Below are positions 2,699-24,633 of a DNA stretch of 26,556 nt, in pieces. The notes beneath the pieces were generated by a model. It searched no databases. It was given only the letters and a program-made list of their open reading frames with translations, and had not been told where the DNA came from. The stretch's first letter is position 1. Each line of letters begins with the position of its first letter. A program made the position numbers and the translations under genes. The DNA lies in the IMG/VR virus record IMGVR_UViG_3300025896_000165, positions 1 through 26,556 of that record; one strand, written 5' to 3'. The stretch comes from a virus.

Positions 2699-3064
2699 AT
2701 GAGAACAGAAATAACAAAAATAACAGAAGCGATTGAAAGCTTGGTTGCAGGAGTTCAATCTAAGCCAGCAGTTGAAAATGGACTTGAGTATGTAATTATT
2801 CGAGGTAAGTATTCAGGAGCAACGGCAGGCTTTCTAAAAAGCCAAGAGGGAAGCGAAGTAATCTTACTACAAGCTAGAAAACTTTGGTATTGGTCTGGGG
2901 CAGCTTCTCTTTATGAACTAGCAGACAGGGGCGTCTCAAAACCTGAAAATTGCAAATTCCCAAAAATAATATCAGAGGTAAAAATCTTAGATTGTGTTGA
3001 GGTAATCAAAGTAAGTGAAAGCGGTAGAAAATCTATTGAAGGAGTAAAAATATGGACAGCATAA
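2699..3064 (+). CDS. DUF6948-like protein
   Basis: A 121-residue protein with an AAGGA ribosome site before ATG 2699. The conserved-looking core lies at residues 59-87 and contains ARKLWYWSGA, LYELADRGV and KPENCKF. Before it comes a strand-rich stretch (YVIIRGKYSGATAGFL), and it closes with SIEGVKIW at residues 112-119. This pattern matches my memory of the small uncharacterised family DUF6948, found in phages and plasmids. The last codons overlap the next gene by 13 bases and carry its strong ribosome site AAGGAG, so this gene and the Gly-X repeat gene form a tight pair. Molecular function is unknown. Family assignment is from memory and moderately confident. Confidence 0.78.
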   Translation: MRTEITKITEAIESLVAGVQSKPAVENGLEYVIIRGKYSGATAGFLKSQEGSEVILLQARKLWYWSGAASLYELADRGVSKPENCKFPKIISEVKILDCVEVIKVSESGRKSIEGVKIWTA

Positions 3065-3393
3065 CTAACGGAAACGGATACGGAGACGGATACGGAAACG
3101 GATACGGAAACGGAAACGGATACGGATACGGAAACGGAAGCGGAGACGGATACGGATACGGATACGGAAACGGAAACGGAAGCGGATACGGATACGGAGA
3201 CGGATACGGAAACGGAAACGGAAGCGGAGACGGAGACGGAGACGGATACGGAGACGGAAACGGAGACGGATACGGAGACGGAGACGGAGACGGAAACGGA
3301 TACGGATACGGAAACGGAAGCGGATACGGAGACGGAGACGGATACGGAGACGGAGACGGATACGGATACGGACTTATTATTTTGCGTGCATAA
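3052..3393 (+). CDS. Gly-Tyr/Asn/Asp/Ser dipeptide-repeat protein (113 aa)
   Basis: ATG 3052 sits seven bases after AAGGAG, so expression is likely despite the low complexity. After MDSITN come 50 Gly-X dipeptides, then GLIILRA. X is Tyr 19 times, Asp 15, Asn 12 and Ser 4. The repeat has no basic residue, and Asp rises from 3 in the first 25 units to 12 in the last 25. Such a chain should be disordered, sticky through Tyr and Gly, and acidic; a DNA-mimic, condensate-forming or adhesive role are all possible, none shown. The gene overlaps the DUF6948-like gene upstream. Its TAA overlaps the primase-helicase ATG as TAATG (3391-3395). It could instead act mainly as a translated leader for the primase. 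Confidence 0.75.
   Translation: MDSITNGNGYGDGYGNGYGNGNGYGYGNGSGDGYGYGYGNGNGSGYGYGDGYGNGNGSGDGDGDGYGDGNGDGYGDGDGDGNGYGYGNGSGYGDGDGYGDGDGYGYGLIILRA
3070..3369 (+). repeat. Tandem array of fifty GGA-NNC hexamers
   Basis: Fifty uninterrupted 6-base units, each GGA followed by TAC, GAC, AAC or AGC. By count the array is 56% GC, well above the AT-rich flanks. Every Gly codon is GGA and every partner codon ends in C, although neighbouring genes favour codons ending in A or T. All differences between units change the amino acid; none is silent. Serine units (12, 19, 26, 42) always follow an Asn unit, and the five-unit block N-Y-Y-N-S occurs twice (units 8-12 and 38-42). Gain or loss of units would keep the frame, so length could vary without breaking the protein. 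Confidence 0.97.
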
Positions 3394-6643: not shown

Positions 6644-6866
6644 ATGTGATCATTGCGGAGAGGTAAGTTTTTGGACTTGCAAAGAAGCTGACAAGTTTCA
6701 TGGCTACCGATGTTTTGAATGTCAAGAATCTGATTGGGAAGATTTTGTATATTCGGTGGCTGGTGCTGGCATGACTGTTCAAAAACTAACAATAAAAGAT
6801 TGGCGTTATTTAGACAGACGACTTAAGAAACAAGTTATTTATAAGGAGCAAGCAGATGGAGAGTAA
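6624..6866 (+). CDS. Small zinc-ribbon-like protein, GTG start (80 aa)
   Basis: The gene starts with GTG at 6624, nine bases after AGAGGAG; no ATG is available before the cysteines. The N-terminus has two CxxC knuckles, C8/C11 (CDHCGE) and C30/C33 (CFECQE), with C19 and H26 between them, the layout of a small zinc ribbon. The C-terminal half contains LTIKDWRYLDRRLKKQVIYKEQ, a basic helix that could contact nucleic acid. It lies between two unknown genes and overlaps both. A metal site is well supported by spacing; the role (regulator, nuclease inhibitor or assembly factor) is unknown. Confidence 0.74.
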   Translation: MKKKLVECDHCGEVSFWTCKEADKFHGYRCFECQESDWEDFVYSVAGAGMTVQKLTIKDWRYLDRRLKKQVIYKEQADGE

Positions 6867-7080
6867 GTTTAGAGCTGGTGACATGGTTTGGCTAATAAAA
6901 TATTACCAATCACAACATCAATTTAACGTAACGGAAAGAAAGGAAATTATGAGAGTTGATAGAAGCGTTCTTCACATAAAGAATGAGAAAGCTTTTAACA
7001 TTAGACTTGCTTTTTTTGATTATGCTGAAGCTTGTAACAAATGTAACTTAATAAATATCGAATTAAACAAGAGCTTTTAA
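6856..7080 (+). CDS. Small protein of unknown function (74 aa)
   Basis: AAGGAGC six bases before ATG 6856, inside the end of the previous gene, supports this start. The 74-residue product begins MESKFRAGDMVWLIKYYQSQ and has a strand-rich middle, a pattern that can occur in small SH3-like barrels. Two cysteines near residues 61 and 64 form a lone CxxC (CNKC). No family recognised. The gene ends 16 bases before the next, with only a five-codon frame between them. Confidence 0.65.
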   Translation: MESKFRAGDMVWLIKYYQSQHQFNVTERKEIMRVDRSVLHIKNEKAFNIRLAFFDYAEACNKCNLINIELNKSF

Positions 7081-7096
7081 AAATGATTGAGGAATT

Positions 7097-7336
7097 ATGA
7101 AAACAACAATACCTGCTAAGACGATAATAGAGTGTGACAGATGTAGTAAAGAGATCTGTCACATAAATAAAAACAATCTACTCGGTGGTTTTTTGAATTA
7201 TGGATCTCAGAACAGCTTAGATTGGCAAGGCGTTCCTATAGCAAAAGGTTCTGAGTATGAATTTGACTTGTGCGATAATTGCTACAGAGATCTCTATGAT
7301 TGTTTAGATGAGTGGCGGAACGGTACAAGATGTTAA
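7097..7336 (+). CDS. Small CxxC zinc-binding protein (79 aa)
   Basis: Last gene of the rightward operon. TTGAGGAATT precedes ATG 7097. The 79-residue protein has two knuckles, C13/C16 (CDRCSK) and C59/C62 (LCDNCY), about 42 residues apart, with C21, H22 and C79 as further candidates. Between them is a strand-rich insert (WQGVPIAKGSEYEFD). The order CxxC, beta insert, DLCDxCY recalls small phage proteins with a treble-clef or ribbon fold, but no named family can be given. It ends 35 bases from the convergent virion operon. Confidence 0.72.
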   Translation: MKTTIPAKTIIECDRCSKEICHINKNNLLGGFLNYGSQNSLDWQGVPIAKGSEYEFDLCDNCYRDLYDCLDEWRNGTRC

Positions 7337-7371
7337 AGATTCTGAATTTGAGTGTCCTTTACCTAAATATA

Positions 7372-9504
7372 TTACTGAGCAGTCATAGGATCGTACTCTT
7401 CCTTAAAGCTTAATGCCTCACTTAACCTTCTTAGCATGTCGCCAGTTTGTTCAGTACCAGAATAAGGAACTTCTACAGCATCTTCATAAGGGATAGCAGA
7501 GTTAAATACCTCTAAAGGATTAAAGAATCCTCCATTAAATTCTGGGTCTAGTTCTTTTACTGGTCCTTGAGGCTGTGAAGGATTAATAGGAGAATACTTC
7601 TTCTTAGATAACATTCCACCAATAACCTCAGCTTGCTCTCTCGGTGACAAATCTTTATCTAGTGCTTTATTAATATGGATACTTTGCTCCATAGGGTCTA
7701 AGAGCTTGCCATCTAGGAAAGATTGATACCCTTCTGGAGCTGGTTCAAACGCATCAGGGAATTGTTGCACCAACCCTCTAATAACCTCATCTTGAACAGC
7801 TTTATTCCCATTGATAGCAATCTCTTTTATTTCATCTGATATTGATTTAGCCAATTGAGGATTGCCAGTTTTACTTTGCAAATAAAATCCAATCTCATTG
7901 GCAAATCCTTCTGGATCTTCTGCTAGAGCATCACTACTTCTTGGCAAGAGAGTAGACCCAAGAATTGCAAGCTTAGTAGCATCACTGTTTAGTAAAGCAG
8001 ATCCAGAGCTAACAGCAGAATTGAGTCTATATAAAGAGCGAGCTAACATTGGGGATCTCGAAACGCTATTCATAGCTCCAGCTCCCAAAGATAAGGCAGC
8101 AATTCCAGTGCCCAACGCAGGACTTCCCATTAATCCAATAGCTCCACCAGAAGCTAAAATAGGATAGTTTGGTCTTATTCCACCAATCGCTCCAGTAATA
8201 GACGTAAGAAGTCCAGATTCATCTAGTTTTGCCTTTGATGATGCCTCATCTGCGTTCTTAGATAATTTAGCAAGTGCAGAGTATTCTTTGTTAAGTGGTT
8301 TTAAAATATCTCCACCTTGAGTATTTTCTACATACTCTCTTAACCCTTCTGCAATCTTTTGCTTAAAAGTATCTGTATAACTAGATTTTCTTTGAGGGCT
8401 AGTTGGAGACTTTGTGAAACTTGTTTCTGCTTCTAAATTCTTAGCAATTTCCCAAGCGTCTTTTGCCGACAACTTTCCTCTATTGCCAATTGTTTGTGCA
8501 AAGTCATCTAATGCTTCCATTGCCCCTAGTTGCATATCAGGAGTAGAATTTGGATCGTATAAAATATTCAACAGCTCATCTGTTGGGTTAGACTTGAAAA
8601 TTGGAACAGAAACTCCTTGTGCAATATTTACATTTTGAAGTGGTATGTCATTAGCTGGATTAGTTGATAAGTTGTCATAAACAGAATCTAGCTTAGTGCC
8701 AATAGTAGATTTTCTTGCCTTTAATTCTTGCCAAGCTTTTTGAGGTTTATTCCCAAAGATGCTTGTTGCAGTTTGGGGATTAACCTCTTCTAAGTTAGAG
8801 ACAGATTTAACTAGACTCTTTGGATCGGTTTCTGAAATTTGTTTATTGCTAGCATTAAAGTTTCTATCTAATATTTTCTCTGGAGTATTTCTTGATGCAC
8901 TCTTTGCGTTAATAAACCTTTCAGCACCTTTTAGCCCTCCGTAAACAGTTCCCCCAGTGACAGCTCCATATAAGCCCCCAGTACCAGCATTAGATACTCT
9001 CTCTTCTAAGCCACCTTCTCCTTCGCCAAAGCCATAAGCTCCACCAAGTACAGCCCCACTTAAAGCAGCATTTTTTAATGAATTAATTTTAACAGCAGAA
9101 TTTATAGGATTAGCAAATCCAGCAGCGATATTTGAAACAGTTGATGTTACAGGATTTTCTTCACCGTACCTTTTTTGAATATCTCTCATCTGTAAGAGTC
9201 TTTCGTCATAAGCATCACCAAAAGAACTATCACCAAACAAGGAATCAAGAGCTGCACTTCCACCAGCAGTTATTTCGTCTCCATACCCAAACGTACCAGC
9301 ATCTAGTAAGTTGCCCATACCACCAACTATGTTTTCTGTAGGAGTTAATGGTTGCTTTTGTTGTGCATCACTTAGATTTATCTGCAACACTCCATCTTCA
9401 CTATAGGTTGGTGCTTGATATGAATCTTGAGAAAGAGCATCCAACTCCTCATCTGTCATTGAATCAATTTCTTCTGCTGAAAATTGTGAAAATCTATCTG
9501 CCAT
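7372..9504 (-). CDS. Probable internal virion / DNA-ejection protein (710 aa)
   Basis: Last gene of the leftward virion operon. The N-terminus is acidic (MADRFSQFSAEEIDSMTDEE). Two long Gly/Ala-rich, weakly hydrophobic regions lie at about 145-195 and 430-480, separated by helical, Lys/Glu-rich sequence. The C-terminus is Pro- and Glu-rich. Such segments are typical of podovirus internal proteins that leave the capsid and line a channel across the host envelope. No lysozyme or transglycosylase motif is seen, unlike T7 gp16. ATG 9504 overlaps the upstream stop as TAATG. The ejection role is inferred from composition, size and position next to two similar proteins; no specific homologue is recognised. 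Confidence 0.78.
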   Translation of the reverse strand: MADRFSQFSAEEIDSMTDEELDALSQDSYQAPTYSEDGVLQINLSDAQQKQPLTPTENIVGGMGNLLDAGTFGYGDEITAGGSAALDSLFGDSSFGDAYDERLLQMRDIQKRYGEENPVTSTVSNIAAGFANPINSAVKINSLKNAALSGAVLGGAYGFGEGEGGLEERVSNAGTGGLYGAVTGGTVYGGLKGAERFINAKSASRNTPEKILDRNFNASNKQISETDPKSLVKSVSNLEEVNPQTATSIFGNKPQKAWQELKARKSTIGTKLDSVYDNLSTNPANDIPLQNVNIAQGVSVPIFKSNPTDELLNILYDPNSTPDMQLGAMEALDDFAQTIGNRGKLSAKDAWEIAKNLEAETSFTKSPTSPQRKSSYTDTFKQKIAEGLREYVENTQGGDILKPLNKEYSALAKLSKNADEASSKAKLDESGLLTSITGAIGGIRPNYPILASGGAIGLMGSPALGTGIAALSLGAGAMNSVSRSPMLARSLYRLNSAVSSGSALLNSDATKLAILGSTLLPRSSDALAEDPEGFANEIGFYLQSKTGNPQLAKSISDEIKEIAINGNKAVQDEVIRGLVQQFPDAFEPAPEGYQSFLDGKLLDPMEQSIHINKALDKDLSPREQAEVIGGMLSKKKYSPINPSQPQGPVKELDPEFNGGFFNPLEVFNSAIPYEDAVEVPYSGTEQTGDMLRRLSEALSFKEEYDPMTAQ

Positions 9505-10805
9505 TATTTAGACCCTTTCTTCTGTTGTAAATAAATATCAGTAGCCTTTAAGAAAGCTTCTCTATCTCCACCAAAATCTGCAAGTCTTGGTCTATTGATT
9601 TTTTCAGTAAAATCAGCCCCATTAACTTTATCAGGATTTTCAATTACTCCAAAGCCCTCATCCTTGTTAGGAACTTCCATGAATGGTTTCATATTTCTTC
9701 CTCCCCTTTGAGAAACATCAACAGCCGAAGATATAACTCTATTGCCAATTCTCTCAACCTCTTCTAATACTGCCCTTGCTTGAGAAGGAGAACCAATAAC
9801 CAGAGAAGGATCGCCAAGCTTCTTCATTGCAGCTCTATCAGCATTAGATAATCCTTGACCACTTCCTTGAGCTATTTTTGCTAACTGAAAAGTCAACTCT
9901 TCTGCTATTCCAGAGTATATATTTTCAGGGCTTCCAACATCGAACGCTTCAGAATAGCCTCTTTTGATCTTATCCAACATTCCACCTTCTGGCATCTTGC
10001 TAAGAAGCTCCTTCATTGCAACTAAGTTTTGCTCCACTGTTTTTTGAGCTTTAAGAACGTCTAAGTCTCCTTTCTCTGGTCTTATAATGTTTAGTCCTGA
10101 ATTTCTTAGGATAGTTGCTCCACTATAAGCTCCAACTTCCGAATAAAGCTTTCCTATTAATTCAGGTGATGCCTCTCCCTTGACTATCGCATCTTGCAAT
10201 TCTAAGTTGGTCTCTGGTGATAGGGTTGGTCTTTGTGTTGATTGACTAGGATCGTTGTAGTCCCTCCTAATTCCCTGACTCTGCTCCCAGCTCTTTAATC
10301 CTTTTTGTGCCTCAATATATTCTTTAGCCCTCTCTCTTTGTAAGCCATCTTGATAATCAGTTCTACTCTTCCATTGATTTTCATTGATCTGATCTCTTAC
10401 TAATTCTCTTTCAGTTTGAGCCTGTTGCAAATTATTCTTTTGAATATTATCAGTGTACCCACCAACAACCTTAGAGCCAATATTAAATCCTTCTGCAGCT
10501 CCTTGATTGCCGTCAATTGCATAACCTAAAAGTCCAGGAACTAATCCCATTAATCCAGTTGCCCAAGCTTGAGAAGGTGATAACTCCCCACTTTGTAAAC
10601 TTCTAATTTTGTTTAATGAGTTCTCAATATCAAAACTATGCAACCCTTCATTCTTAGGTGCTATCTCTCCTAATTCGGGACTCCCTTGATATAAGGGTTT
10701 TGGAGTGTCAAAACTTGGGACAAGAGAATCTATTCTATTTGTATCATAGGTATTATAAGTATCATCAATTGCCCAAGCATTTTTTAATCTATTTAACTCA
10801 TCCAT
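9504..10805 (-). CDS. Probable internal virion / DNA-ejection protein (433 aa)
   Basis: The start is placed at 10805 (MDELNRLKNAW) because GGAGGTG lies just upstream; the frame is open for 35 more codons but that stretch overlaps the previous gene and has no ribosome site. A hydrophobic Gly-rich segment (LMGLVPGLLGYAIDGNQGAA, about residues 83-102) is followed by a long Gln/Glu/Arg coiled coil (QQAQTERELVRDQ onward, to about residue 175). The C-terminal half has a helical region with KLGDPSLVIGS and VISSAVDVSQRGG. This pairing of a glycine-zipper-like segment with a coiled coil recurs in podovirus ejection proteins. Role inferred. Confidence 0.77.
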   Translation of the reverse strand: MDELNRLKNAWAIDDTYNTYDTNRIDSLVPSFDTPKPLYQGSPELGEIAPKNEGLHSFDIENSLNKIRSLQSGELSPSQAWATGLMGLVPGLLGYAIDGNQGAAEGFNIGSKVVGGYTDNIQKNNLQQAQTERELVRDQINENQWKSRTDYQDGLQRERAKEYIEAQKGLKSWEQSQGIRRDYNDPSQSTQRPTLSPETNLELQDAIVKGEASPELIGKLYSEVGAYSGATILRNSGLNIIRPEKGDLDVLKAQKTVEQNLVAMKELLSKMPEGGMLDKIKRGYSEAFDVGSPENIYSGIAEELTFQLAKIAQGSGQGLSNADRAAMKKLGDPSLVIGSPSQARAVLEEVERIGNRVISSAVDVSQRGGRNMKPFMEVPNKDEGFGVIENPDKVNGADFTEKINRPRLADFGGDREAFLKATDIYLQQKKGSK

Positions 10806-10806
10806 C

Positions 10807-11760
10807 CTATTGCCCACCTCCAACAATGCCCTTAACTTTATCGAAGTAAGTATTGTAATCAAAACTACCACTAGGAGTCGTTTGACTGGTTGTCGATCTA
10901 TCTCTACCACGCCTAGTTAGTCCGTAAATATCCCTTGATAGTTCTTCATTTCTTCTGTTGGCATCTCTAGTTTCTCCAAGATTAATAGCTCCAAAATAAG
11001 TTCCAACTTGTCCTGCTTTTTCAGCTCCAACTTGTCCAAGATTAATTAACCTTCTCTTCAACTCATCGTCTCGAGCCCTTTCTAATCTATCAGCATAATC
11101 CGAACTAGTCTCTCTCATTCTGTTATATTCAGTATCCTCAACGCCTCTAAGGGTACTTCCATACTCTCCAGTTCTTCTATACTTTTCATCAGCACCACGA
11201 ATCATTAAATCCTGCTCGTTTCTTCCCTGTGCTTCTGCCCTATCTCTTTGTGCCTTATCTTTCATTAAAGCAGCCTGTGAGCCTGTAAGTCTATTTCTCA
11301 CTATAGATCTATTAACAGCTGCATTTTGCGTGTTGTAAGCTGATTCAGTGCCACGTCTTTGTTGCTCTCTTAATCCCTGATACTCTTCCGAAGTATAGCC
11401 TTCTGACTGGGATTTTAAAGAGTTTAAATTAGCAGATAATTCTGCGGATCTGTTTTTACCTGGAATACCATAAGTATCTCTGACCGCCGATAGTTGATCT
11501 AGGATTCCAGTTATTTCACCAGAACGAGATTCATCAACTCTGCCCATAGATCCTGGAGCGTAAAGCTTGTCAACTAGTCCGCTAGCTCCAGCTGCATATT
11601 TCCCAACTAAGTCACCAACAGCTCTATCTTTATCAGCTTGAATGGCTTCTGGTGTATTTGCAGCAGCTTTGTTCTTAGCACGATTTTCGGCTTCAAGCCT
11701 TCGACGAGCTTGTGCTGCTGCATTACTTGTTCCTCTTTTTGGTTTAGTTCTATCTGACAT
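10807..11760 (-). CDS. Arg-rich helical virion protein, probable ejection protein (317 aa)
   Basis: ATG 11760 follows AAGGA about twelve bases upstream. The 317-residue product starts with a basic low-complexity tail (SDRTKPKRGTSNAAAQARRR), then is almost wholly helical with many Arg, Glu, Gln and Ala residues and few hydrophobics, like T7 gp14 or P22 gp7 class internal proteins in composition. A Gly-containing LGQVGAEKAGQVGTYFGAI stretch near residues 242-260 could insert in a membrane. It ends in VGGGQ, where the codons supply the next gene's ribosome site. It is the first of three consecutive probable ejection proteins. Exact homology not established. Confidence 0.75.
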   Translation of the reverse strand: MSDRTKPKRGTSNAAAQARRRLEAENRAKNKAAANTPEAIQADKDRAVGDLVGKYAAGASGLVDKLYAPGSMGRVDESRSGEITGILDQLSAVRDTYGIPGKNRSAELSANLNSLKSQSEGYTSEEYQGLREQQRRGTESAYNTQNAAVNRSIVRNRLTGSQAALMKDKAQRDRAEAQGRNEQDLMIRGADEKYRRTGEYGSTLRGVEDTEYNRMRETSSDYADRLERARDDELKRRLINLGQVGAEKAGQVGTYFGAINLGETRDANRRNEELSRDIYGLTRRGRDRSTTSQTTPSGSFDYNTYFDKVKGIVGGGQ

Positions 11761-11774
11761 AATTTATTAATTCC

Positions 11775-12290
11775 TTACACAATATTATTTTCAGGTAAAT
11801 CTGCACATTCGTAAATACCAACACATCTAATAGTTACTCCAGCAGCCAATGCGTAATTTGACACGTCATACTTTCTTACTACCAAATCAGTTCTGGTATT
11901 TCTTAAATTACTAAACCCCATTAAAATTGCACCATCATTTATTACCGCAACTCCAACGCCATTGCTCTCTCTAAACCCCTCATTGGGCAAAAACGGTAAA
12001 TTAATATAAACCTCATTACTGGCAACTCCACCAGTTGTCCCAGTGATAAAAAAAGAATAAATAATTGTATTGCCAACCTTTAAATACTTTCCTCCAATAT
12101 CTGCTGTCTTAGTAAACGTCATTGTTCCTGATGCTGAAAATTCAGTAGGAGTCCAGTCTCTCCACTCTGAAAAACAAAATGCAATGACAGCTTTTATAAT
12201 TTTATCCATTCTACGCAAAACTACCGCCCACTTCATTAATGTGGTTTTAATATTAGGTACAACATCAAATGCCCAATTCAAATTACTCAT
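11775..12290 (-). CDS. Fibre-tip-like tail protein (171 aa)
   Basis: A 171-residue protein whose N-terminal 40 residues are helical (LMKWAVVLRRMDKIIKAVI). The rest is a beta-rich domain typical of the C-terminal ends of phage fibre proteins: WRDWTPTEFSASGTMTF, YLKVGNTIIYSFFITGTTGG and EVYINLPFLP. This pattern is often seen where fibres contact the host surface, so a receptor-binding or tail-tip role is likely. It lies directly after the nozzle gene, overlapping by ATGA (12287-12290), which fits a piece attached to the tail. No chaperone or spike enzyme motif is visible. Domain call moderately sure; receptor unknown. Confidence 0.75.
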   Translation of the reverse strand: MSNLNWAFDVVPNIKTTLMKWAVVLRRMDKIIKAVIAFCFSEWRDWTPTEFSASGTMTFTKTADIGGKYLKVGNTIIYSFFITGTTGGVASNEVYINLPFLPNEGFRESNGVGVAVINDGAILMGFSNLRNTRTDLVVRKYDVSNYALAAGVTIRCVGIYECADLPENNIV

Positions 12291-14944: not shown

Positions 14945-15894
14945 TAGTAGCTCCAAAAATCTTGTTGTGGGATTCTGTCCATCTCCTGTGATTGTTGTTT
15001 GTAAATCCTAACAATTGCATCTTCTTGAGAATCCAACATCATTAATAACTTTGAATAAGCTCCAGTAACATCTTTAGGCCCTAATATCATTGCAGCAGCA
15101 TAATAGATAAGATAGTTTTCACATTCATCAGGCAAATCAGAATGAGTTGTCGTATATTTACCTATCGTAAGATAATCACCAACAGCAACCGTTTCTCCAG
15201 TAGCAAACGTAAAAGGATCTAGAGTAAACACCCCAGTGCCAGAATTATAAGAAGTAAAAGCTATGTTCCTCATCTTCACTACGCCATCCTTATCGCAGAT
15301 ACAAAGATACTTATCGGAAGCATTATTTATTGCGTTTGCATCATCGGATGCAGTATTAATAGTTAATGCTGTGAGTTGAGTCGATGATAGAGTTCTTGCT
15401 GTAACAGTCCCAACCCTTAAAGCTAAATCATCTAAGCTTCTTTCGTATTTAACTTCAAATTTAGCACCACTACGATTGACAATTGGAATAGGATAAAAGT
15501 TTCCACTCTGTCTATAATATCCATAAGGATATTCAGCAGTGTCACTATTATCGTTCATTGGGTGAAGCTTATCTAGTGGCTTGCCATAATCAGACAGGTT
15601 CCCACTATGGCTATACCTGATAGTAATAAGTTCCTTGTTGAAAAATACTCTATCACTAACTGAATATGCTCTTTGATCGGCAACGGTGGTGATTTCCTGA
15701 CTGGAAGCAAAAGGAGACACGCTGCTATGAGCATTAGAAATTTTAGACTGTAGTAAATCTTGTCCATCGTTTATATATTGTAATATTTCAGCATTGCCAA
15801 TTCCTCCAGTCACATTACCAGAAGAATCTTCAGAGAAGTCCTCATTCTTTGAGAGCCTTCTCGCTGCTGTGATAACATCTTGTATGTATCTCAT
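14944..15894 (-). CDS. Head-tail adaptor protein (316 aa)
   Basis: A 316-residue protein that probably forms the ring under the portal. The N-terminus MRYIQDVITAARRLSKNEDF leads to IGNAEILQYINDGQDLLQSK, the helical start common in podovirus adaptors (SU10/T7 gp11 type). The middle is beta-rich (EITTVADQRAYSVSDRVFF, YPYGYYRQSGNFYPIP). A late helical segment (DECENYLIYYAAAMILG, about 255-271) is followed by a C-terminal helix. TAATG overlaps with genes on both sides, upstream at 15894 and downstream at 14944. Adjacency to the nozzle gene strengthens the call. Confidence 0.87.
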   Translation of the reverse strand: MRYIQDVITAARRLSKNEDFSEDSSGNVTGGIGNAEILQYINDGQDLLQSKISNAHSSVSPFASSQEITTVADQRAYSVSDRVFFNKELITIRYSHSGNLSDYGKPLDKLHPMNDNSDTAEYPYGYYRQSGNFYPIPIVNRSGAKFEVKYERSLDDLALRVGTVTARTLSSTQLTALTINTASDDANAINNASDKYLCICDKDGVVKMRNIAFTSYNSGTGVFTLDPFTFATGETVAVGDYLTIGKYTTTHSDLPDECENYLIYYAAAMILGPKDVTGAYSKLLMMLDSQEDAIVRIYKQQSQEMDRIPQQDFWSY

Positions 15895-16121
15895 TATTTA
15901 ACATTCATTTTCTTTTTAATTATCGCAGCTAAAGTAGCTTTCTTAGCTTTTCCAAGACTGTCACCCTCACTAGGTTCGTCGTCCTTAAAAAGCTCTTCTT
16001 CTACTTCGCCACCTTGTCCTGACGTATTGTTGGATTCACTTTTAAGAAGTTTATCAGGTGCAATCTCATCACCTTTCTTCTCTTCTTCCTCATGTTCATA
16101 TCCGCATTTTTTACATTTCAT
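15894..16121 (-). CDS. Small acidic protein with a CxxC knuckle (75 aa)
   Basis: ATG 16121 follows AAGGG by about nine bases. The product begins MKCKKCGYEHEEEEKKGDE, with a single C3/C6 knuckle and H10, then a disordered acidic middle (SNNTSGQGGEVEEELFKDDE) and a basic C-terminal helix (KAKKATLAAIIKKKMNVK). One CxxC could bind zinc only together with another chain. Its place between a virion protein and the adaptor suggests an assembly factor or minor virion part. No family recognised. Confidence 0.7.
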   Translation of the reverse strand: MKCKKCGYEHEEEEKKGDEIAPDKLLKSESNNTSGQGGEVEEELFKDDEPSEGDSLGKAKKATLAAIIKKKMNVK

Positions 16122-16124
16122 AGT

Positions 16125-17150
16125 TTATACCCTTGACATTAATTGTGCTAAAATTGCATCTTTATATCTGTTTCTATTTGTAGTCTCCTCTTGTGTTGGT
16201 TCGTTGTCATAGTTAGCAAATGGCTCTGGCTGTGATATTCTTGGTAATATGGCATCAAGATTAACTGGCGGTGCAGGCTTCCTTGAAACGACCCTCCTTT
16301 CTTTTGGATTTTCTTTTCTCGGTGATATACCTCTAGTTTCTCTTCTTTGTCCTTGCGTTGACTTTGCCTCTGGCGTATCAAGCAGTGATGATGCAAAACT
16401 ATTAAACTCATCGTTTGAATTAACATCTAAAGTTCCATGATGCTCTCTTAGTAATCCTCTTTTAACCGCTTCGTCTCCAATCTTATATCTTATATCATCA
16501 GATGCTTTATTCCACTTATCACCAAACATCTCTGACCATACAGCATATTTATCAATATCTCTTCCTGTTAGTGCTGACTCATCCCTAGTAGAAGCAAACT
16601 TATTATTTACCCAATTACCTTTATCATCAGTTCCTACAAAATCTTTTGCAAAGTTAGGATTAATTACAGCATTATACTTCTCTTCCCATCCTTTATCACC
16701 GTTATATAAACTAATACCTTGCTTGGCTAAATTATCTCTTCTTTTATCTTCTTTTTCCGTCCTACTGCGTTGTGATATTGCACCATATGCTCCTCCCAAC
16801 ACGCCTCCAGCAGCCCCTCCTATTACCGTTCCTACTACTGGGATGACGGAGCCTATACTAGCTCCAGCAGCGGCTCCACTTGCTGCTCCTTGCAATATAC
16901 CCTTCCCCGTACCCCCTCTATTACTTTTGTTTAGATTATGTATCCCTGCCGCTCCTGCGGCTAGTCCAAGAACTGGCAAGGCATAGCTTGTGCCGCCAAC
17001 AATAGAACCGTCCGACATTAAAGTTCCGCCATTGGTTGCAGTGCCAACTTCATACGCACCACTTCCGCCACTACTTCCAACATTAGATAATACATTTGCT
17101 AGGGTAGATACCCCTGATGTTGGTGGTGGTGATTTTTTCTTTTCAGCCAT
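16125..17150 (-). CDS. Virion protein with glycine-zipper membrane segments (341 aa)
   Basis: GGGAGGTG five bases before ATG 17150, plus TAATG overlap, fixes the start. After a Pro/Gly/Ser-rich head, the protein has two hydrophobic Gly/Ala segments, ALPVLGLAAGAAG (about 57-69) and a longer zipper (about 84-126, including VIPVVGTVIGGAAGGVLGG). A globular part follows with KYAVWSEMFGDKWNKASDDI and KRGLLREHHGTLDVN (about 203-245), a motif I recall from uncharacterised phage virion proteins. The tail is Pro/Arg-rich. Glycine zippers suggest membrane insertion during DNA delivery. Function inferred. Confidence 0.77.
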   Translation of the reverse strand: MAEKKKSPPPTSGVSTLANVLSNVGSSGGSGAYEVGTATNGGTLMSDGSIVGGTSYALPVLGLAAGAAGIHNLNKSNRGGTGKGILQGAASGAAAGASIGSVIPVVGTVIGGAAGGVLGGAYGAISQRSRTEKEDKRRDNLAKQGISLYNGDKGWEEKYNAVINPNFAKDFVGTDDKGNWVNNKFASTRDESALTGRDIDKYAVWSEMFGDKWNKASDDIRYKIGDEAVKRGLLREHHGTLDVNSNDEFNSFASSLLDTPEAKSTQGQRRETRGISPRKENPKERRVVSRKPAPPVNLDAILPRISQPEPFANYDNEPTQEETTNRNRYKDAILAQLMSRV

Positions 17151-17509
17151 TAAGCACCTCCCAAATATCCACGTTGCATTAACGTGGCAAGATTAGTTAA
17201 AGCACTAGATAATCTTTCTTGGTTATTATCATTAGTTCCCATTAAATTTTGTATTCCTTCTATCTGTAGTTTGCGAGGGTCAACTCCACCACCACCAGAG
17301 CCACCACCTCTACCTCCACCGCCTTTAGAAGCACCCTTTAGACCAAACTCATATTTAAGCCTTTCTAGCTCTATTTCCTGTAAACTTTTTTCTCTCTCTG
17401 CCTGAATCTGCTTATCTTGAGCGTCCTCTTGTGCTTTTCTATCAAAGACACCACCCAAAAGAGATGTGCCAACTTGTATTACAGGGCCTAACCAATCAAA
17501 ATCTCCCAT
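17150..17509 (-). CDS. Small virion protein with Gly-rich linker (119 aa)
   Basis: ATG 17509 follows AAGGAG. The 119-residue product has an amphipathic N-terminus (WLGPVIQVGTSLLGGVF), a Gln/Glu/Lys coiled coil (about residues 23-55, EREKSLQEIELERLKYEFG), a glycine-rich linker (about 59-76) and a helical C-terminus with RLSSALTNLATLMQRGY. It is coupled by TAATG to the glycine-zipper protein and probably works with it, perhaps as a minor injection or tail component. No named family. Confidence 0.72.
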   Translation of the reverse strand: MGDFDWLGPVIQVGTSLLGGVFDRKAQEDAQDKQIQAEREKSLQEIELERLKYEFGLKGASKGGGGRGGGSGGGGVDPRKLQIEGIQNLMGTNDNNQERLSSALTNLATLMQRGYLGGA

Positions 17510-17518
17510 AATTACTCC

Positions 17519-18295
17519 TTACTTATATTGTGCATCAAACCAAACATTTGCAGCTCCAATCGTTTTGGTTGGGCCAGTTGTACTATTGCAAACAGTAATT
17601 CCAGTAGAAAAAGCTCTCCCCTTTGGTGGATAATACTGGAATGAAGATGTTGCTGGTACGTATATAATCACAGAAGGGACAGCCGTATCTGCTGGAACAC
17701 TAGTTGTATTATGAATCTGTATCCATTGTGGAGAAGCTAGGGAATTATATCCTGTCAAAGAAAAGAGCGTGCCAGCAGAAGCTTTTACAACTCTCGATGC
17801 TTCATAAGCAACAGAAGTAGCATTTGTCGGATAATAAACAGTGGCAACATCTAACTTTAAAGCATTATCAATACTTTGCAACGTGTTAGCAACAGTTCCG
17901 TCTGCAACGTTAGCGACACCCGTACTAGATACCCTAACAAAGCCATCTGTATACACATAGAAACTGTCACCATTTGCTGGAGCTTGACTAAAAGGAGAGC
18001 TAACAGTAAATGAATTTGTAGTAATGCTAGCAACCCTTCTAGATTGTCTATTTAGATTTCCAGCATAAAACCAAATCCAATCCCCAACTTTTACAGAGTG
18101 AGCAGTGGCAATAATAGTAGAAGCAGTAGATGCCGTTTCTGCTGTATCTGATATATCTTGCCTAGCAAAAAGAGGAGCAGAAATATTTAAGGCAGCTTCT
18201 CCAACTTCGTTATGCGGAGATGTCGGCACTCTTTGTGCATAAACATCAGAGACAAAGAGAGAGAGACTAAATAAAATTATAAATAACTTTTTCAT
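17519..18295 (-). CDS. Phage structural-type protein with Sec signal peptide (258 aa)
   Basis: The N-terminus is a textbook Sec signal: MKK, hydrophobic [12 protein letters not shown], then SDVYA followed by Gln, with cleavage expected after A20. The first Met is the only Met in the frame, so an ATG start without the signal is impossible; a GTG at V23 is the nearest alternative. The rest is beta-rich: [13 protein letters not shown], a middle linker, and a C-terminal domain with [33 protein letters not shown] and [15 protein letters not shown], a pattern I recall from virion or decoration proteins of many phages. The start has no ribosome site and lies three bases after the previous stop. Export of a virion-operon product is odd. 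Confidence 0.8.
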
Positions 18296-18298
18296 AAA

Positions 18299-19357
18299 TT
18301 AACTAGCAGAAAAATATTCAGTTGAATCATCAGATCCAACCACGATAGCATCAAAGCCACTATCAAAAGCTAGACCTCCAAAATCAGCAGATTTAAGACT
18401 AATTTGAGAAGCACTAGAAATACCATTGCCTCTTCTTAGAAACCGCAAAATAGTGCTATCTCCATTGGCTACAACAACACTAGACCTAGCAAAAGTATCA
18501 GTGATATTAAATGTAGCGTTAGCAGAAGCAGTTGATTGTGATGTAAAATCCTTTCCAGTAGTTGGGCCACCAACAGTAAAGGTTGCAGAGTTTAAAGAAA
18601 GCCCACAAAGTCCAGCGATTCTACAATTTCTTTGGGTTGTTAAGACAGTTCTAAATGACTCATGCCCACACTCTCCAACAGCCTGACTTCCTAATACGAA
18701 AATAGAGAAAGCTCCATCAACTAGTGCGTTTGCATTTTGGTCATAGACTTCAATCTCACAAGTGGAAGCGGTTTTAGTTTTAACGCTGACAGTTGTTGCA
18801 GTAGCATCGTCATAGCCCATTACAACGATTACTGGAGTTTGACCAAATTCCTTTCTAAAACTAATAGAATACGTTCCAGTTGCAGTTTTAGAAGAGATAA
18901 AATCTCCACTACCAATTGTACTTGCCCCAGCAGAAGAAATTTGCCCAAACAAGAATCTTGGTGCAAGCATCGGGGCATGAACTTCAAATAACTTTCCAGA
19001 ATACTTATCCGCTTCTGCCGTTCTGTAACCTAGCAATATGCCATCAATACCAGCTGGCTCTAAATTTGCTCCACCATTTCCTTTGGTAACAATATTTAAA
19101 GTATTAAGAGAAGCACCACTTGCATTGCCTCCTAGTGCGTAGCCACCATTGCCAGGATTTAATACTAAACTTGAAACATTTATAAACCTTCTATTTAAAG
19201 GCGATTTCAAAGTTAAAGTATAATTAGCAGCAGAGTTTCTGACGGCTGTTGAAAATAAAGATTTTCCATAATTGAAAGCTACTCCAGACGCAGTACAACT
19301 TAATGAATATGGTAAGAGAATGGTTTCTCTATGAACAGATTCTAATGATCTTAACAT
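18299..19357 (-). CDS. Surface or fibre-like virion protein with three related beta domains (352 aa)
   Basis: ATG 19357 follows AGGGAG seven bases upstream. The 352-residue product seems to contain three copies of an about 90-100 residue beta domain: 25-115, 138-229 and 245-347. Matching landmarks are a strand (ANYTLTLKSP, GTYSISFRKE, ATFNITDTFA) and a closing motif (IDGILLGYRTAE, DGAFSIFVLGSQA, DSGFDAIVVGSDD). Cys-rich CRIAGLCG near 245-252 opens the third copy. Triplicated beta domains are common in capsid-decorating and fibre proteins, so a surface role is likely. It lies after a terminator-like hairpin downstream of the decoration gene. Alignment was by eye. Confidence 0.8.
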   Translation of the reverse strand: MLRSLESVHRETILLPYSLSCTASGVAFNYGKSLFSTAVRNSAANYTLTLKSPLNRRFINVSSLVLNPGNGGYALGGNASGASLNTLNIVTKGNGGANLEPAGIDGILLGYRTAEADKYSGKLFEVHAPMLAPRFLFGQISSAGASTIGSGDFISSKTATGTYSISFRKEFGQTPVIVVMGYDDATATTVSVKTKTASTCEIEVYDQNANALVDGAFSIFVLGSQAVGECGHESFRTVLTTQRNCRIAGLCGLSLNSATFTVGGPTTGKDFTSQSTASANATFNITDTFARSSVVVANGDSTILRFLRRGNGISSASQISLKSADFGGLAFDSGFDAIVVGSDDSTEYFSAS

Positions 19358-19412: not shown

Positions 19413-19877
19413 TTAAGCAGCTCTAACTTGATACCATCTTGAATCAAGAGCGTTCCAAGTTAGCGAAACAGCAGCCAGTGCAGAGATTATGCATCCTGTA
19501 CCGTTAGCCACGTTTGATGTCCCAGCAGCAGCCATTGTTAAAGTATTTGCAGCAGTAGTATTAATAATAGTCAATTTCTGACCATGCTTAGTACCAGCTT
19601 GAACAATAACACCAGTTTTATTTGCAGCACTTGAACAAGCCACAATTGCAACTCCGCAACCATTGTGAGAAATAGTTCCACTATCTGCAATTGAAGTTGA
19701 AGCTCCGCTTGTAACAGTTGGCGTTTGAAATAATGCACCGCCCATATTTGCAGCAGCTCCCTCAACAAAACCTGCTTGCCCACCGATTGCAACACCACCA
19801 GGATAACTATTGGTAGGTGTCGGCTCTGGTGTAATGGCAAAAGTACCAGGTTTACTTTGTAATCTATCTAATGACAT
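19413..19877 (-). CDS. Probable head decoration protein (154 aa)
   Basis: ATG 19877 follows AGGAG six bases upstream. The 154-residue protein has a Pro-rich N-terminal arm (TPEPTPTNSYPGG), a Gly/Ala-rich connector and a C-terminal beta domain: HNGCGVAIVACSSAA, HGQKLTIINTTAANTLTM and VSLTWNALDSRWYQVRAA. The last part follows a pattern often seen in phage head-fibre and decoration proteins (strand, AAGTSNV, then WDAxxSRW). Its place directly after the major capsid gene, between two hairpins, supports abundant expression and capsid association. An alternative is a head fibre. Confidence 0.78.
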   Translation of the reverse strand: MSLDRLQSKPGTFAITPEPTPTNSYPGGVAIGGQAGFVEGAAANMGGALFQTPTVTSGASTSIADSGTISHNGCGVAIVACSSAANKTGVIVQAGTKHGQKLTIINTTAANTLTMAAAGTSNVANGTGCIISALAAVSLTWNALDSRWYQVRAA

Positions 19878-19929: not shown

Positions 19930-21165
19930 CTAAGTTGTTGTCAACCCAGTGATAATTCCATGAGCAGTTGGAACAATACCAAACTCTGGATACGTACAGT
20001 ATCTAGCTTGCCAAGCATCACTTGTTTGTGATCTTTGGAAGATAGAGCCACCTGTAGCATCTGGAGTTTCCTGCCAACCAGCATTGGGTCTAGCGTGCAT
20101 CTCAATAAAGTCAGAATTTAAGAAGTAGAAAGTATCATCTTCTACAAATCTTTCTGCCACTACTGGGATTGGGCCAGTATCACTCATGAACTCAAGAGCT
20201 TGGAAAGAGAACTTACCTTTAGGCCCTGAATTACGAGACTCAACAATCATGTAACGTTTCTGATCTTCTAATTGGTTCAATAGTTTTCTGTACTGAACAA
20301 AAGAAGTAACTAACATATCAGGAGCTTCGCCGAAGTTGTATTTAATCTGCAAATTACCTTTGTTAAGATAATCAGAAGTTAAACCAACGCCAACAGAAGT
20401 ATCTTGATATGGAGATTGCCATCTATAGCCAACATTTATTCCATATAGCGAACCAGAAGTAGCTAATAGAACGCCTCTTAGACCAGTACAATCGTTATCC
20501 TTAGAATTTTGCATGTAGACACTATGAGTACCTGCACCAATATTTGCTAAGTCAAACGCAGCACCTTGTCTTTGAGTAAGTTGAACAACTCTAGTTGAAG
20601 GAGTTACGGCAGTGATTTCAAATTCTGCGGAGTTAGTATTAACATTCACAAAATCTTTAGTCTCAAAGTTAGCTTGCTTCCAAGTTGTAGTTTCAATAGT
20701 TACGTTATAGACACCAGCAGACGCTAGAGATTGGTTACCTGAAAAAGTTCCTAATCTGCCGTTACCGTTTGAAGTTATTGAATCATTGAATAGCTGACGT
20801 GACATGTTGCCTTGAAATGCCTGAACGCCTCTTTTAACTGGCTCTTTAGACAATCTAACAAATGCACCTTCATCTGTTCCTGATGCTTCGATTGCTTCGT
20901 TATCAATTTCAATGACTACATATTGCTTCTTAGCATATATATCCATTCTTTGATATGAAGCCACGTTTGGTCTAGGAAGTGATCCAGAACCTCTACCACC
21001 ACCAAAAGATGTTGGAACAGAAATTCTAGCGAACTCACCTACAAACGCATCGTTTCTTTTTATTTTTGCTAATATTACGTTTTCAGAATTAAACATGTCA
21101 CGAGTCATTCGCACATATTTAGTCTTAAACACACCACTAGCTGTGGTTAAGTTATAATTTGACAT
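19930..21165 (-). CDS. Major capsid protein (411 aa)
   Basis: A 411-residue protein placed after portal and scaffold, the standard position of the major capsid gene, and flanked by hairpins. AGAGAGG lies just before ATG 21165. It has an N-terminal arm followed by NDAFVGEFARISVPTSFGGG, a helical spine-like part (QYVVIEIDNEAIEASG with KRGVQAFQGNMSRQLFNDS), an inserted beta region around residues 145-235, and a C-terminal part with APDMLVTSFVQYRKLLNQL and WQARYCTYPEFGIVPTAHG. This agrees with the HK97-type fold of dsDNA phage capsids, though the exact subfamily is not clear by eye. No delta-domain protease is seen; the separate scaffold gene serves instead. Confidence 0.9.
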   Translation of the reverse strand: MSNYNLTTASGVFKTKYVRMTRDMFNSENVILAKIKRNDAFVGEFARISVPTSFGGGRGSGSLPRPNVASYQRMDIYAKKQYVVIEIDNEAIEASGTDEGAFVRLSKEPVKRGVQAFQGNMSRQLFNDSITSNGNGRLGTFSGNQSLASAGVYNVTIETTTWKQANFETKDFVNVNTNSAEFEITAVTPSTRVVQLTQRQGAAFDLANIGAGTHSVYMQNSKDNDCTGLRGVLLATSGSLYGINVGYRWQSPYQDTSVGVGLTSDYLNKGNLQIKYNFGEAPDMLVTSFVQYRKLLNQLEDQKRYMIVESRNSGPKGKFSFQALEFMSDTGPIPVVAERFVEDDTFYFLNSDFIEMHARPNAGWQETPDATGGSIFQRSQTSDAWQARYCTYPEFGIVPTAHGIITGLTTT

Positions 21166-22428: not shown

Positions 22429-24633
22429 TTATGGTTCTAATGTTGGTTGCTGCGGCTGTTCGCTTTGTATTACTGGAGCTGCATTAAAACCACCACCCAT
22501 ACTTGGAGACATTCCATTAACACCACCACCAGCTTGCATAGGCGGAGCTGCGAAAGGATTAACTGGTTGTCTAAAGTATGCAGGGAAAGTTTCTAGCATC
22601 ATTAGTTTTTGTTGAAATACTACATTTGGCATTACTAATTGAACACCAGTTGCAGGATCAGTAATACCGTAAGCTTTAACGTATGCAAGGTATTCTGTAA
22701 TCTCCACATGTTTTTGAAATATTTGTTTTCTATCAGGAGGCGTTAATTCCTTAAAGTCTCTGCTTTGAGCTTCTTGATAGTGAGTCTTTAAGTGAGTAAT
22801 TAAATCCTCATCAGGTGTTGGGTCTGCTACTGGATTGCCTGATAAGAAGTCCTCATTTTCTGACTGAGCACATCTATAAGCTCTAGTTTCTACATCTTCA
22901 AATTCTTTATTATCTGCTAATCCTGAAAGCTCTAAGAATTGACCTTTTGTAAATGGCGAATCTGCATTAACTCTAACATTTGCAATCTCAGCAACTTCAT
23001 CAATTCTGGCACTCGGTGATTGCGACAATGCTGGGGTAGCTTCCGCTCTTACCACAAACGGTGATTGTAATGATTTTGACTTAAAGGAAAGCAATTTATA
23101 TTTATTATCTTTTCCAAGAATATGAATTAATCTTCCGTCACTGTCGTCATAGTAATCTCCAGCAACGCCAACTTGTCCTTTTGCCAATCCAGTTATAGCC
23201 TCTGACATCTTAACGCCAAAGTAAGCATTTTTCTTATCTTCTTGATCTTCTAAAACTCTTAATGCCTTAGCAGCTCTAACGCCACTTGGTGCTTGACCAT
23301 GAGACAATGAGAATACTCCTGACATTCTATCAAACGCCTTAACTAAGACATCTAATGCTTGAAATAGTTCTTGATGCACAATGGAAGAACTTAACATGTG
23401 AGGCTGAAAACTAGCACTTGGATCTACTGCTACTAAAGTTGATTCAGCAGATAGTTGTGTCATTTGAACAGTTCCACCCTCGTAAACAATCTTAGGATGA
23501 GCACATAATACCAGTGATTTATAGATTAAAGATGCGTAAGCATTAATCTGGTGTTGAATTGGGAATAGTTGTTGAATAATACTTGAACATCTTGGATGAT
23601 CTGGATGCTCCATATCTCCTAAATACTCATAAGGAAGCTTACCATCAGAATACGGTAAAATTGTATTCTCTAAAACACAATCTCTTGTAAACTTAACAAA
23701 TCTTCCATCTTCTAAAAATTCATGGTGTTTATGATATAAAGTATAAACTACAACTTGACTTTGAAGCTTGCCAATATCTACTCTGTAGTTAGAAAATATC
23801 TGAACAGTATCATCAGATTTTATATCGTTGGCTTTATCTGGATATTTAGCTTTTAAATAATCAATATCTTTTAAATCCCAACGAATACACCAATCAATAT
23901 TATCTCGATTAGTTGTTGGCATTTCAAAGACTTGATAAGGTGGAATAACCTCTAAATCAACATCTCCAATACGAATACACCTTTGAAGATTCATTGGCTC
24001 ACCATCGGTATTATTGATTGCATTTCCATCAATATCTAAAATTGGAACAGTTCTGCCTTGCTCTTTTGCTGCTAAATAATCTGGATGTACAACTCCCTTA
24101 TTAGGATTCCAAGTTCTAAAAAGAAAAGATTCTCCACAAACTAAAGCTTGTCTAATCCATCTAGCTTTAAGTTTCTCAAAGTTATTAACATACCAAATAT
24201 AATCTGATACTTGTTGTGCAATCTTAGCATCATCTCTATCTGATTGTTCTTGATTAGCTGGATAAAAAGCTACCGCATCTTTGTTTCTTGTATATCTTGA
24301 TACTTTTGATTCAATAAAATCATAGGTGTAGTTAAGAACTATTCTTGGACTTCTTCTTGAAGCCATTGACATTGGGCCACCGTTATCTGTAAACCTATTG
24401 TTATTTGTTGATTGAGAAGCCCATTGAACACCCTTGTAAATCCAAAGATTATCTAATTGAGTACTAAAATGCCAACGATAATAATCTTCACAAAATTCTA
24501 AAGTTTTAACACACCAGTCTAAAACCTTTTTCTCGTCCTCAATATCTGACAATGCCCAAAATGGAGTAAGTTGTTTTTGGCTATGCTCATAGCTGTCAAA
24601 TGGTGATGCTTGTAATGCTCCGATATATGTCAT
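22429..24633 (-). CDS. Portal protein, P22-like (734 aa)
   Basis: A 734-residue portal, long like P22 gp1. The N-terminal part is helical with WHFSTQLDNLWIYKGVQWAS and the early RSPRIVLNYTYDFIESKVSR segment. The wing and stem parts follow with RCIRIGDVDLEVIPPYQVFE (about 215-234) and DNIDWCIRWDLKDIDYLKAK. MSGVFSLSHGQAPSGVRAAK (about 440-460) is a conserved element in many portals of this kind. The C-terminus is Gln/Pro/Gly-rich and probably disordered. The start overlaps the upstream stop as ATGA. It forms the ring at the packaging vertex that meets the terminase. High confidence. Confidence 0.93.
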   Translation of the reverse strand: MTYIGALQASPFDSYEHSQKQLTPFWALSDIEDEKKVLDWCVKTLEFCEDYYRWHFSTQLDNLWIYKGVQWASQSTNNNRFTDNGGPMSMASRRSPRIVLNYTYDFIESKVSRYTRNKDAVAFYPANQEQSDRDDAKIAQQVSDYIWYVNNFEKLKARWIRQALVCGESFLFRTWNPNKGVVHPDYLAAKEQGRTVPILDIDGNAINNTDGEPMNLQRCIRIGDVDLEVIPPYQVFEMPTTNRDNIDWCIRWDLKDIDYLKAKYPDKANDIKSDDTVQIFSNYRVDIGKLQSQVVVYTLYHKHHEFLEDGRFVKFTRDCVLENTILPYSDGKLPYEYLGDMEHPDHPRCSSIIQQLFPIQHQINAYASLIYKSLVLCAHPKIVYEGGTVQMTQLSAESTLVAVDPSASFQPHMLSSSIVHQELFQALDVLVKAFDRMSGVFSLSHGQAPSGVRAAKALRVLEDQEDKKNAYFGVKMSEAITGLAKGQVGVAGDYYDDSDGRLIHILGKDNKYKLLSFKSKSLQSPFVVRAEATPALSQSPSARIDEVAEIANVRVNADSPFTKGQFLELSGLADNKEFEDVETRAYRCAQSENEDFLSGNPVADPTPDEDLITHLKTHYQEAQSRDFKELTPPDRKQIFQKHVEITEYLAYVKAYGITDPATGVQLVMPNVVFQQKLMMLETFPAYFRQPVNPFAAPPMQAGGGVNGMSPSMGGGFNAAPVIQSEQPQQPTLEP

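Follow-up and report, generated by a model that had tools for sequence, protein, structure and literature searches.

Virion fibres are held to stay in the cytosol until lysis. The absence of signal peptides has even been used to argue that variable binding proteins come from phages (PMC6199706), and a search of the open-access literature did not find a class of signal-bearing phage fibres in print. The MAT fibres of Bdellovibrio bacteriovorus are phage-fibre-like and exported, and PMC10769870 gives all 21 of them a beta-rich domain behind a signal peptide; they are long trimeric fibres encoded by the bacterium. Phage T5 encodes Llp, a small lipoprotein of the periplasmic envelope that blocks the phage's own receptor, and lambda encodes, among its tail genes, the signal-peptide protein Lom, an outer-membrane beta-barrel expressed in lysogens (PMC9586334 and PMC12309495, respectively). 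In phi1422 (NC_019525), a cultured, lytic phage of Bdellovibrio, the signal-bearing gp68 (614 aa) is encoded directly after the signal-less tail fibre gp67.

The gene described here lies in IMG/VR virus record IMGVR_UViG_3300025896_000165, and the whole stretch of 26,556 bases that was analysed (GC = 37%) is called the window. Its product, the target, is predicted from its structure model to have a signal peptide and then a beta-rich domain, the order described for MATs, but it is short, and no MAT tip was detectable in it. It differs from Llp in lacking a lipobox and in being made from a virion-type domain; unlike the target, Lom is not fibre-derived. The closest relatives are the KGYPSQEK fibre/decoration proteins (family F1; 43 metagenomic homologues from P22-portal podophages), which share the beta domain of residues 29-130 and the late, post-capsid position but have a leader of their own and no signal peptide, and are mostly longer with other C-termini. 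On balance, and at little better than even chances, we favour the reading that the target is an exported, fibre-derived envelope protein, serving in receptor shielding or as an adhesin, rather than a virion part assembled in the cytosol.

The late operon and the start of the target gene

The plus strand of the window carries a replication half, with profile matches to Gp157, SSB and primase-helicase, and the minus strand a late half with terminase, a P22-like portal, the major capsid protein and virion genes. Between two of the replication genes, a 113-aa ORF (3052-3393, plus strand) consists almost entirely of low-complexity G[YND]G-type repeats. The features around the target are as follows.

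22429..24633, minus strand: P22-like portal (PF16510, 59.9 bits)
19930..21165, minus strand: major capsid protein (phrog_14242, E=2.7e-14), used as bait for relatives
19413-19877: member of family F3, first gene after the capsid gene, without signal peptide
18299..19357, minus strand: gene upstream of the target in the virion operon, 352 aa, stop codon coupled to the target start
18296..18301, minus strand: TTT spacer and TAA stop of the upstream gene; target start without Shine-Dalgarno site
17519..18295, minus strand: target gene, ORF with ATG start that follows the capsid gene; predicted exported protein of fibre type, 258 aa
18236..18295, minus strand: Sec signal peptide, residues 1-20, predicted SPase I cleavage before Q21
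17942..18166, minus strand: virion-type beta domain, residues 44-118 (family match 29-130), pLDDT 85-98 in blocks 41-120
17519..17848, minus strand: C-terminal region, residues 150-258, low pLDDT
17150-17509: gene after the target, weak T7_gp14 match (E=0.018, below cut-off)

In the late operon the target comes third after the capsid gene, and no homologues of the 352-aa product encoded before it were found in a scan of viral contigs. Beyond the gene that follows the target, 16125-17150 (minus strand) encodes a glycine-zipper protein that resembles portions of the tail lysin and tape-measure families, a possible ejection protein. Another contig (L002, 1-5466) has a portal 100% identical (rounded) to that of the window and extends about 5.4 kb past the right end. 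The window is therefore a fragment, and no integrase was found in it.

The original prediction described an ORF with only one methionine and no ribosome site, and both points hold. The reading frame occupies 17519-18295 on the minus strand and encodes 258 residues with a single Met; the in-frame inner starts are the GTG codons 23, 114 and 209 and the TTG codons 139 and 180, and the frame is closed upstream, the codons ahead of the ATG being TAA TTT. The context ATATTTTTCTGCTAGTTAATTT-ATG has no AGGAG-like site, unlike most of the neighbouring genes, which have strong Shine-Dalgarno sites. This absence is accounted for by translational coupling, since the ATG lies 3 nt from the stop codon of 18299-19357 and could be used by coupled re-initiation.

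Signal peptide, beta domain and replaced leader

All the features of a Sec/SPase I signal (positive n-region, uncharged h-region, A-x-A site) are present in the target. Lys2 and Lys3 are followed by an uncharged hydrophobic stretch and an A-x-A-type site after A20, where the peptide ends in VYA and continues as QRV, and residues 2-16 form a helix in the AlphaFold model. The lipobox test, which looks for Cys at +1, is negative, because this residue is Gln and the sole Cys lies near residue 236. The score of the target was reached by 38 of 100,000 shuffles of its own residues (1,851 passing at any score) and by 25 of 68,352 random 22-codon leaders drawn at the composition of the window and free of stops (867 at any score). 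It is worth stating that this score comes from a home-made heuristic rather than from SignalP. The heuristic misses some obvious signal peptides (L118, L030 10881) and lets spurious ones through, including a presumed false call on the over-extended GTG ORF 9504-10910. That long minus-strand ORF has a hydrophobic N-terminus and a GTG start that overlaps 10807-11760; its start is probably over-extended, the real one lying further in (MDELNRL).

The confident part of the AlphaFold model is the beta domain of residues 44-118, and the C-terminal half is poor (mean pLDDT 64.9). The C-terminal region has hardly any relatives, except that residues 169-250 resemble a protein of the huge phage LR745208 (tblastn E=6e-4, 33.7%). 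Direct scans of viral contigs with the whole protein and with its C-terminal part gave no homologues, nor an orthologue bearing a signal peptide. Pfam and PHROG matches were sub-threshold or weak, and no Ail/Lom domain was among the Pfam matches at E<=0.1. The best match of the PDB sequence search (E=0.14) was taken as chance; no MAT chain appeared in that search. In the fold search, the top matches of the domain were a gene-transfer-agent virion chain, a tail tube (as 9n71) and a tailspike (Z 9.2, 8.8 and 8.3). Unrelated E1 enzymes came next at about Z 7, and a specific fold family is not claimed; the absence of a MAT chain among these matches was not counted as exclusion.

Relatives were collected through the capsid protein, which gave 32 viral contigs and then 80 by alignment (overlapping sets), together with three contigs from bacterial or archaeal bins; 94 loci were examined. 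An iterated profile over their ORFs recovered 45 relatives of the N-terminal domain of the target at E<=1e-3, from which one partial sequence was dropped; the remaining 44 members of family F1 include some that are near-identical to each other. The target matches the family profile with 94.4 bits over approximately residues 29-130, and the profile itself finds the chain of a phage tail tube (9n71, E=4.5e-5) as well as an endosialidase (4hiz, E=0.0035). By descent, as judged from this homology, the target is a virion-type protein.

Within the family, the signal peptide is found in the window member only. The others start with a leader of their own, usually MS-x-x-KG[YFW]PSQEK, which is as conserved as the domain, and in the window member the first approximately 25 family positions are swapped for a signal peptide and a short linker. 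In locus L041, whose capsid protein is 66% identical to that of the window, the F1 member, syntenic with the target and in matching gene order, has no signal peptide.

These results bear on the remaining claims of the original prediction. A full Sec signal peptide is confirmed by the two lysines, the hydrophobic stretch, the cleavage site and the shuffle controls, and the structural type is supported by the homology of residues 29-130 to a virion-type family. Export to the periplasm or the cell surface would be the best reading of the sequence. It had further been proposed that homologues without the N-terminal 20 residues, together with virion peptides starting at V23, would imply a GTG start. 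Signal peptides are indeed missing from 43 of 43 homologues, but these have a conserved leader of about 25 residues that a start at V23 would not bring back, and thus they do not point to V23.

Signal peptides on fibre-type proteins of related phages

In the same phage clade, signal peptides also precede other virion-type families in which the relatives have none. Judged by eye, such signal-bearing genes were present in eight of the 94 loci (seven distinct). In family F2 ('VKALK' fibres), a signal peptide was found in L037, L038 and L067 (3 of 30 matches), where it precedes an otherwise kept family N-terminus and where, in these podophages, the signal-bearing fibre is the sole F2 match in the locus. 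In the post-capsid family F3, it was found in L072 and L073, which share one sequence (2 of 13 matches); the L072 protein (11200-11718) is a homologue of window 19413-19877 in which the signal peptide replaces the family N-terminus. In L027, L028 and L030, signal-bearing fibres occupy the gene slot after the F1 gene. L027 and L028 have capsid proteins that are 84% identical, and at the DNA level indels separate their fibre signal peptides, whereas the mature start AGLPPTTSKVSGDSTDL is the same in both, a pattern that would have the look of selection for a working signal. L030 encodes two more signal-bearing fibre-like proteins (8665-10881 and 10881-12266) beside the fibre at 6654-8024, which belongs to the LPPT family.

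Several calls were discarded. The signal-peptide rows of L085/L097, L074 and L036 were judged by eye to be chance, a script call on the F2 member of L074 was dropped for its over-extended TTG start, and the Cys-containing calls L027 6750, L028 15486 and L030 13925 were left out because they are likely lipoproteins. Signal-bearing genes (score >=4.3) are not enriched downstream of the capsid gene (8 of 540, vs 7 of 485 upstream), and hence the argument rests on homologues with and without a signal. Signal-like starts at the same score were absent from 95 capsid-region ORFs and 310 nested antisense ORFs.

The LPPT family, defined by a GLPPTTSK module, bears a signal peptide in 18 of 18 viral contigs (17 by script and L118 by eye); five of these contigs were already known, and the set has 16 distinct N-termini. 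The signal peptides vary in sequence and length (pairwise identity 0.39), whereas the mature start GLPPTTSK is largely preserved (0.59), with Ala in 14 of 16 and Ser in 2 of 16 at the assumed -1 position; a mild bias is to be allowed for here, because the search pattern reached back to this residue and the signal peptide was part of the query. One match of the module per phage record was obtained in 19 of the 23 records searched, that of L030 included. In 11 of these 19 the P22 portal profile was matched (E<=1e-3), six being over the cut-off, and in two Baseplate_J was matched, one of them also with a weak portal match. In the myovirus contigs L122 and L123, the gene order is baseplate J, tail fibre, F1-like protein and LPPT fibre. 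Here the tail fibre has a glycine-rich tip and no signal peptide, and the F1-like protein and the LPPT fibre are both signal-bearing (the former in L122 by eye only). At least in L122 and L123 the exported fibre is therefore an extra, because a signal-less tail fibre is also present.

The signal-bearing fibres differ in cysteine content. Those in L037 and L067 contain 14 and 10 Cys, respectively, vs 0-6 in the 15 signal-less F2 members counted; the fibre of L028 and two fibres of L030 have none. A need for disulfides as the cause of export would suit some relatives only, and this explanation was not adopted. Taken together, the export-tagged, target-like fibre proteins of related viruses suggest that such viruses send fibre-like proteins to the host cell surface.

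Possible role, host and competing readings

The signal peptide, the family domain, the replaced leader and the recurrence of the pattern can be read directly from the sequences, and from here on we infer export in vivo, loss of virion attachment, function and host. The target would descend from a beta-structured protein, a fibre or a decoration, that was attached to the virion in P22-portal podophages, and the swap of the F1 leader, probably the attachment part, for a Sec signal peptide would have turned it into an exported protein. Since an export signal has replaced the leader, the target should leave the cytosol before particles are built. It would be made late, with its translation coupled to the upstream gene, threaded through Sec and cut after A20 by signal peptidase I; the mature protein of 238 residues (Q21-K258) would then fold in the periplasm and act at the host envelope. 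Its likeliest task may be to bind the surface receptor that the phage itself uses, either from within or at the cell surface, and thereby to keep progeny and sister phages from adsorbing again to the infected cell or to its debris. By analogy with T5 Llp, such receptor shielding would be the simplest benefit; the next-best task would be that of a surface adhesin like the Bdellovibrio MAT fibres.

An alternative is that the target is a true virion part that takes a route through the periplasm, where it would be exported and folded, with disulfides in some relatives, and join particles at or after lysis. Its place in the late structural operon agrees with this, as do the fibres of L037, L038 and L067, which keep the family N-terminus behind the signal as the only F2 match, and the Cys-rich members among them (L037 and L067); moreover, P22 heads accept tailspikes in vitro. 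However, the target has one Cys and has lost the family leader, the L028 and two L030 fibres are free of Cys, the L122/L123 myophages already possess a signal-less tail fibre, and no tailed-phage precedent was found in the open-access literature. We regard this route as unlikely. The thought that the hydrophobic N-terminus is an uncleaved membrane anchor for assembly or DNA ejection draws on the weak T7_gp14 match of the next gene, but the A-x-A site of the target is canonical, the LPPT relatives keep Ala or Ser at the assumed -1 position, and the F1 domain homologues have no such anchor, which makes it very improbable.

More doubtful than the periplasmic route, though less so than the anchor, is an adhesin by which the phage arms a predatory, Bdellovibrionota-like host with a MAT-like surface fibre that would serve the host or help it to bind prey. 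The Bd2734-type tip in the L037 fibre, the layout of signal peptide and beta-rich domain in all 21 MATs (PMC10769870), the infection of Bdellovibrio by phi1422 and the integrases in the L028 and L067 records, the two phage records with integrases, all speak for it; against it, the target has no recognisable MAT shaft or tip and the window, a fragment, has no integrase. The least probable reading of all is that there is no real signal peptide and that translation starts at GTG codon 23, leaving the leader untranslated. The codon is present at V23 and the homologues are signal-less, but no spaced Shine-Dalgarno site precedes it, just six residues would be left ahead of the family match, and the chance of such a leader is about 0.04%. 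The preferred reading remains that of an exported, fibre-derived envelope protein.

Regarding the host, Bacteroidetes genes seldom use strong Shine-Dalgarno sites. A Bacteroidetes host, considered under the Q-rule from the +1 Gln, was rejected, because such sites are strong in the window and most signal-bearing relatives have no +1 Gln. The bins of L036-L038 were not used, since they disagree (Bacteroidetes, Woesearchaeota and Epsilonproteobacteria). The L037 fibre (15552-17723), which has a signal peptide, a VKALK N-terminus, 14 Cys in the mature part and a MAT-tip-homologous domain, matches the crystal structure PDB 8OKW over residues 246-400 (155 residues, E=4.1e-11); according to PMC10769870, this entry represents the tip of Bd2734, a MAT fibre from Bdellovibrio. 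In L119, an L037-type fibre body is joined to the LPPT module (E=5.6e-79). We tentatively propose, as a possibility that we would not call probable, that tailed phages, podoviral and myoviral and probably with Bdellovibrionota-like diderm hosts, encode in the tail-fibre slot a dedicated class of Sec-exported fibres, separate from the virion fibres, which is the phage counterpart and perhaps the source of the MAT adhesins used by predatory bacteria in prey recognition, and that the window gene represents the step from virion fibre to exported fibre by leader swap. If this class is real, fibre domains would also be sent by phages to the infected cell's envelope, either to block re-adsorption or to alter host binding, and bacteria may have had a route to phage-like surface fibres such as MATs.

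Among Bdellovibrio phages, phi1402 showed no signal peptide in its fibre and collar genes, in a scan that covered 38 of its 42 coding sequences. In phi1422 (L126), three of 53 scanned coding sequences pass the heuristic (76 annotated), and sequence searches with gp68 gave no similarity to the target, the LPPT fibres or PDB chains. Being cultured, phi1422 makes the question testable through gp68. Both gp68 (40429-42273) and gp75 (44298-44810) are annotated as hypothetical, have signal peptides and lie near the tail fibre gene.
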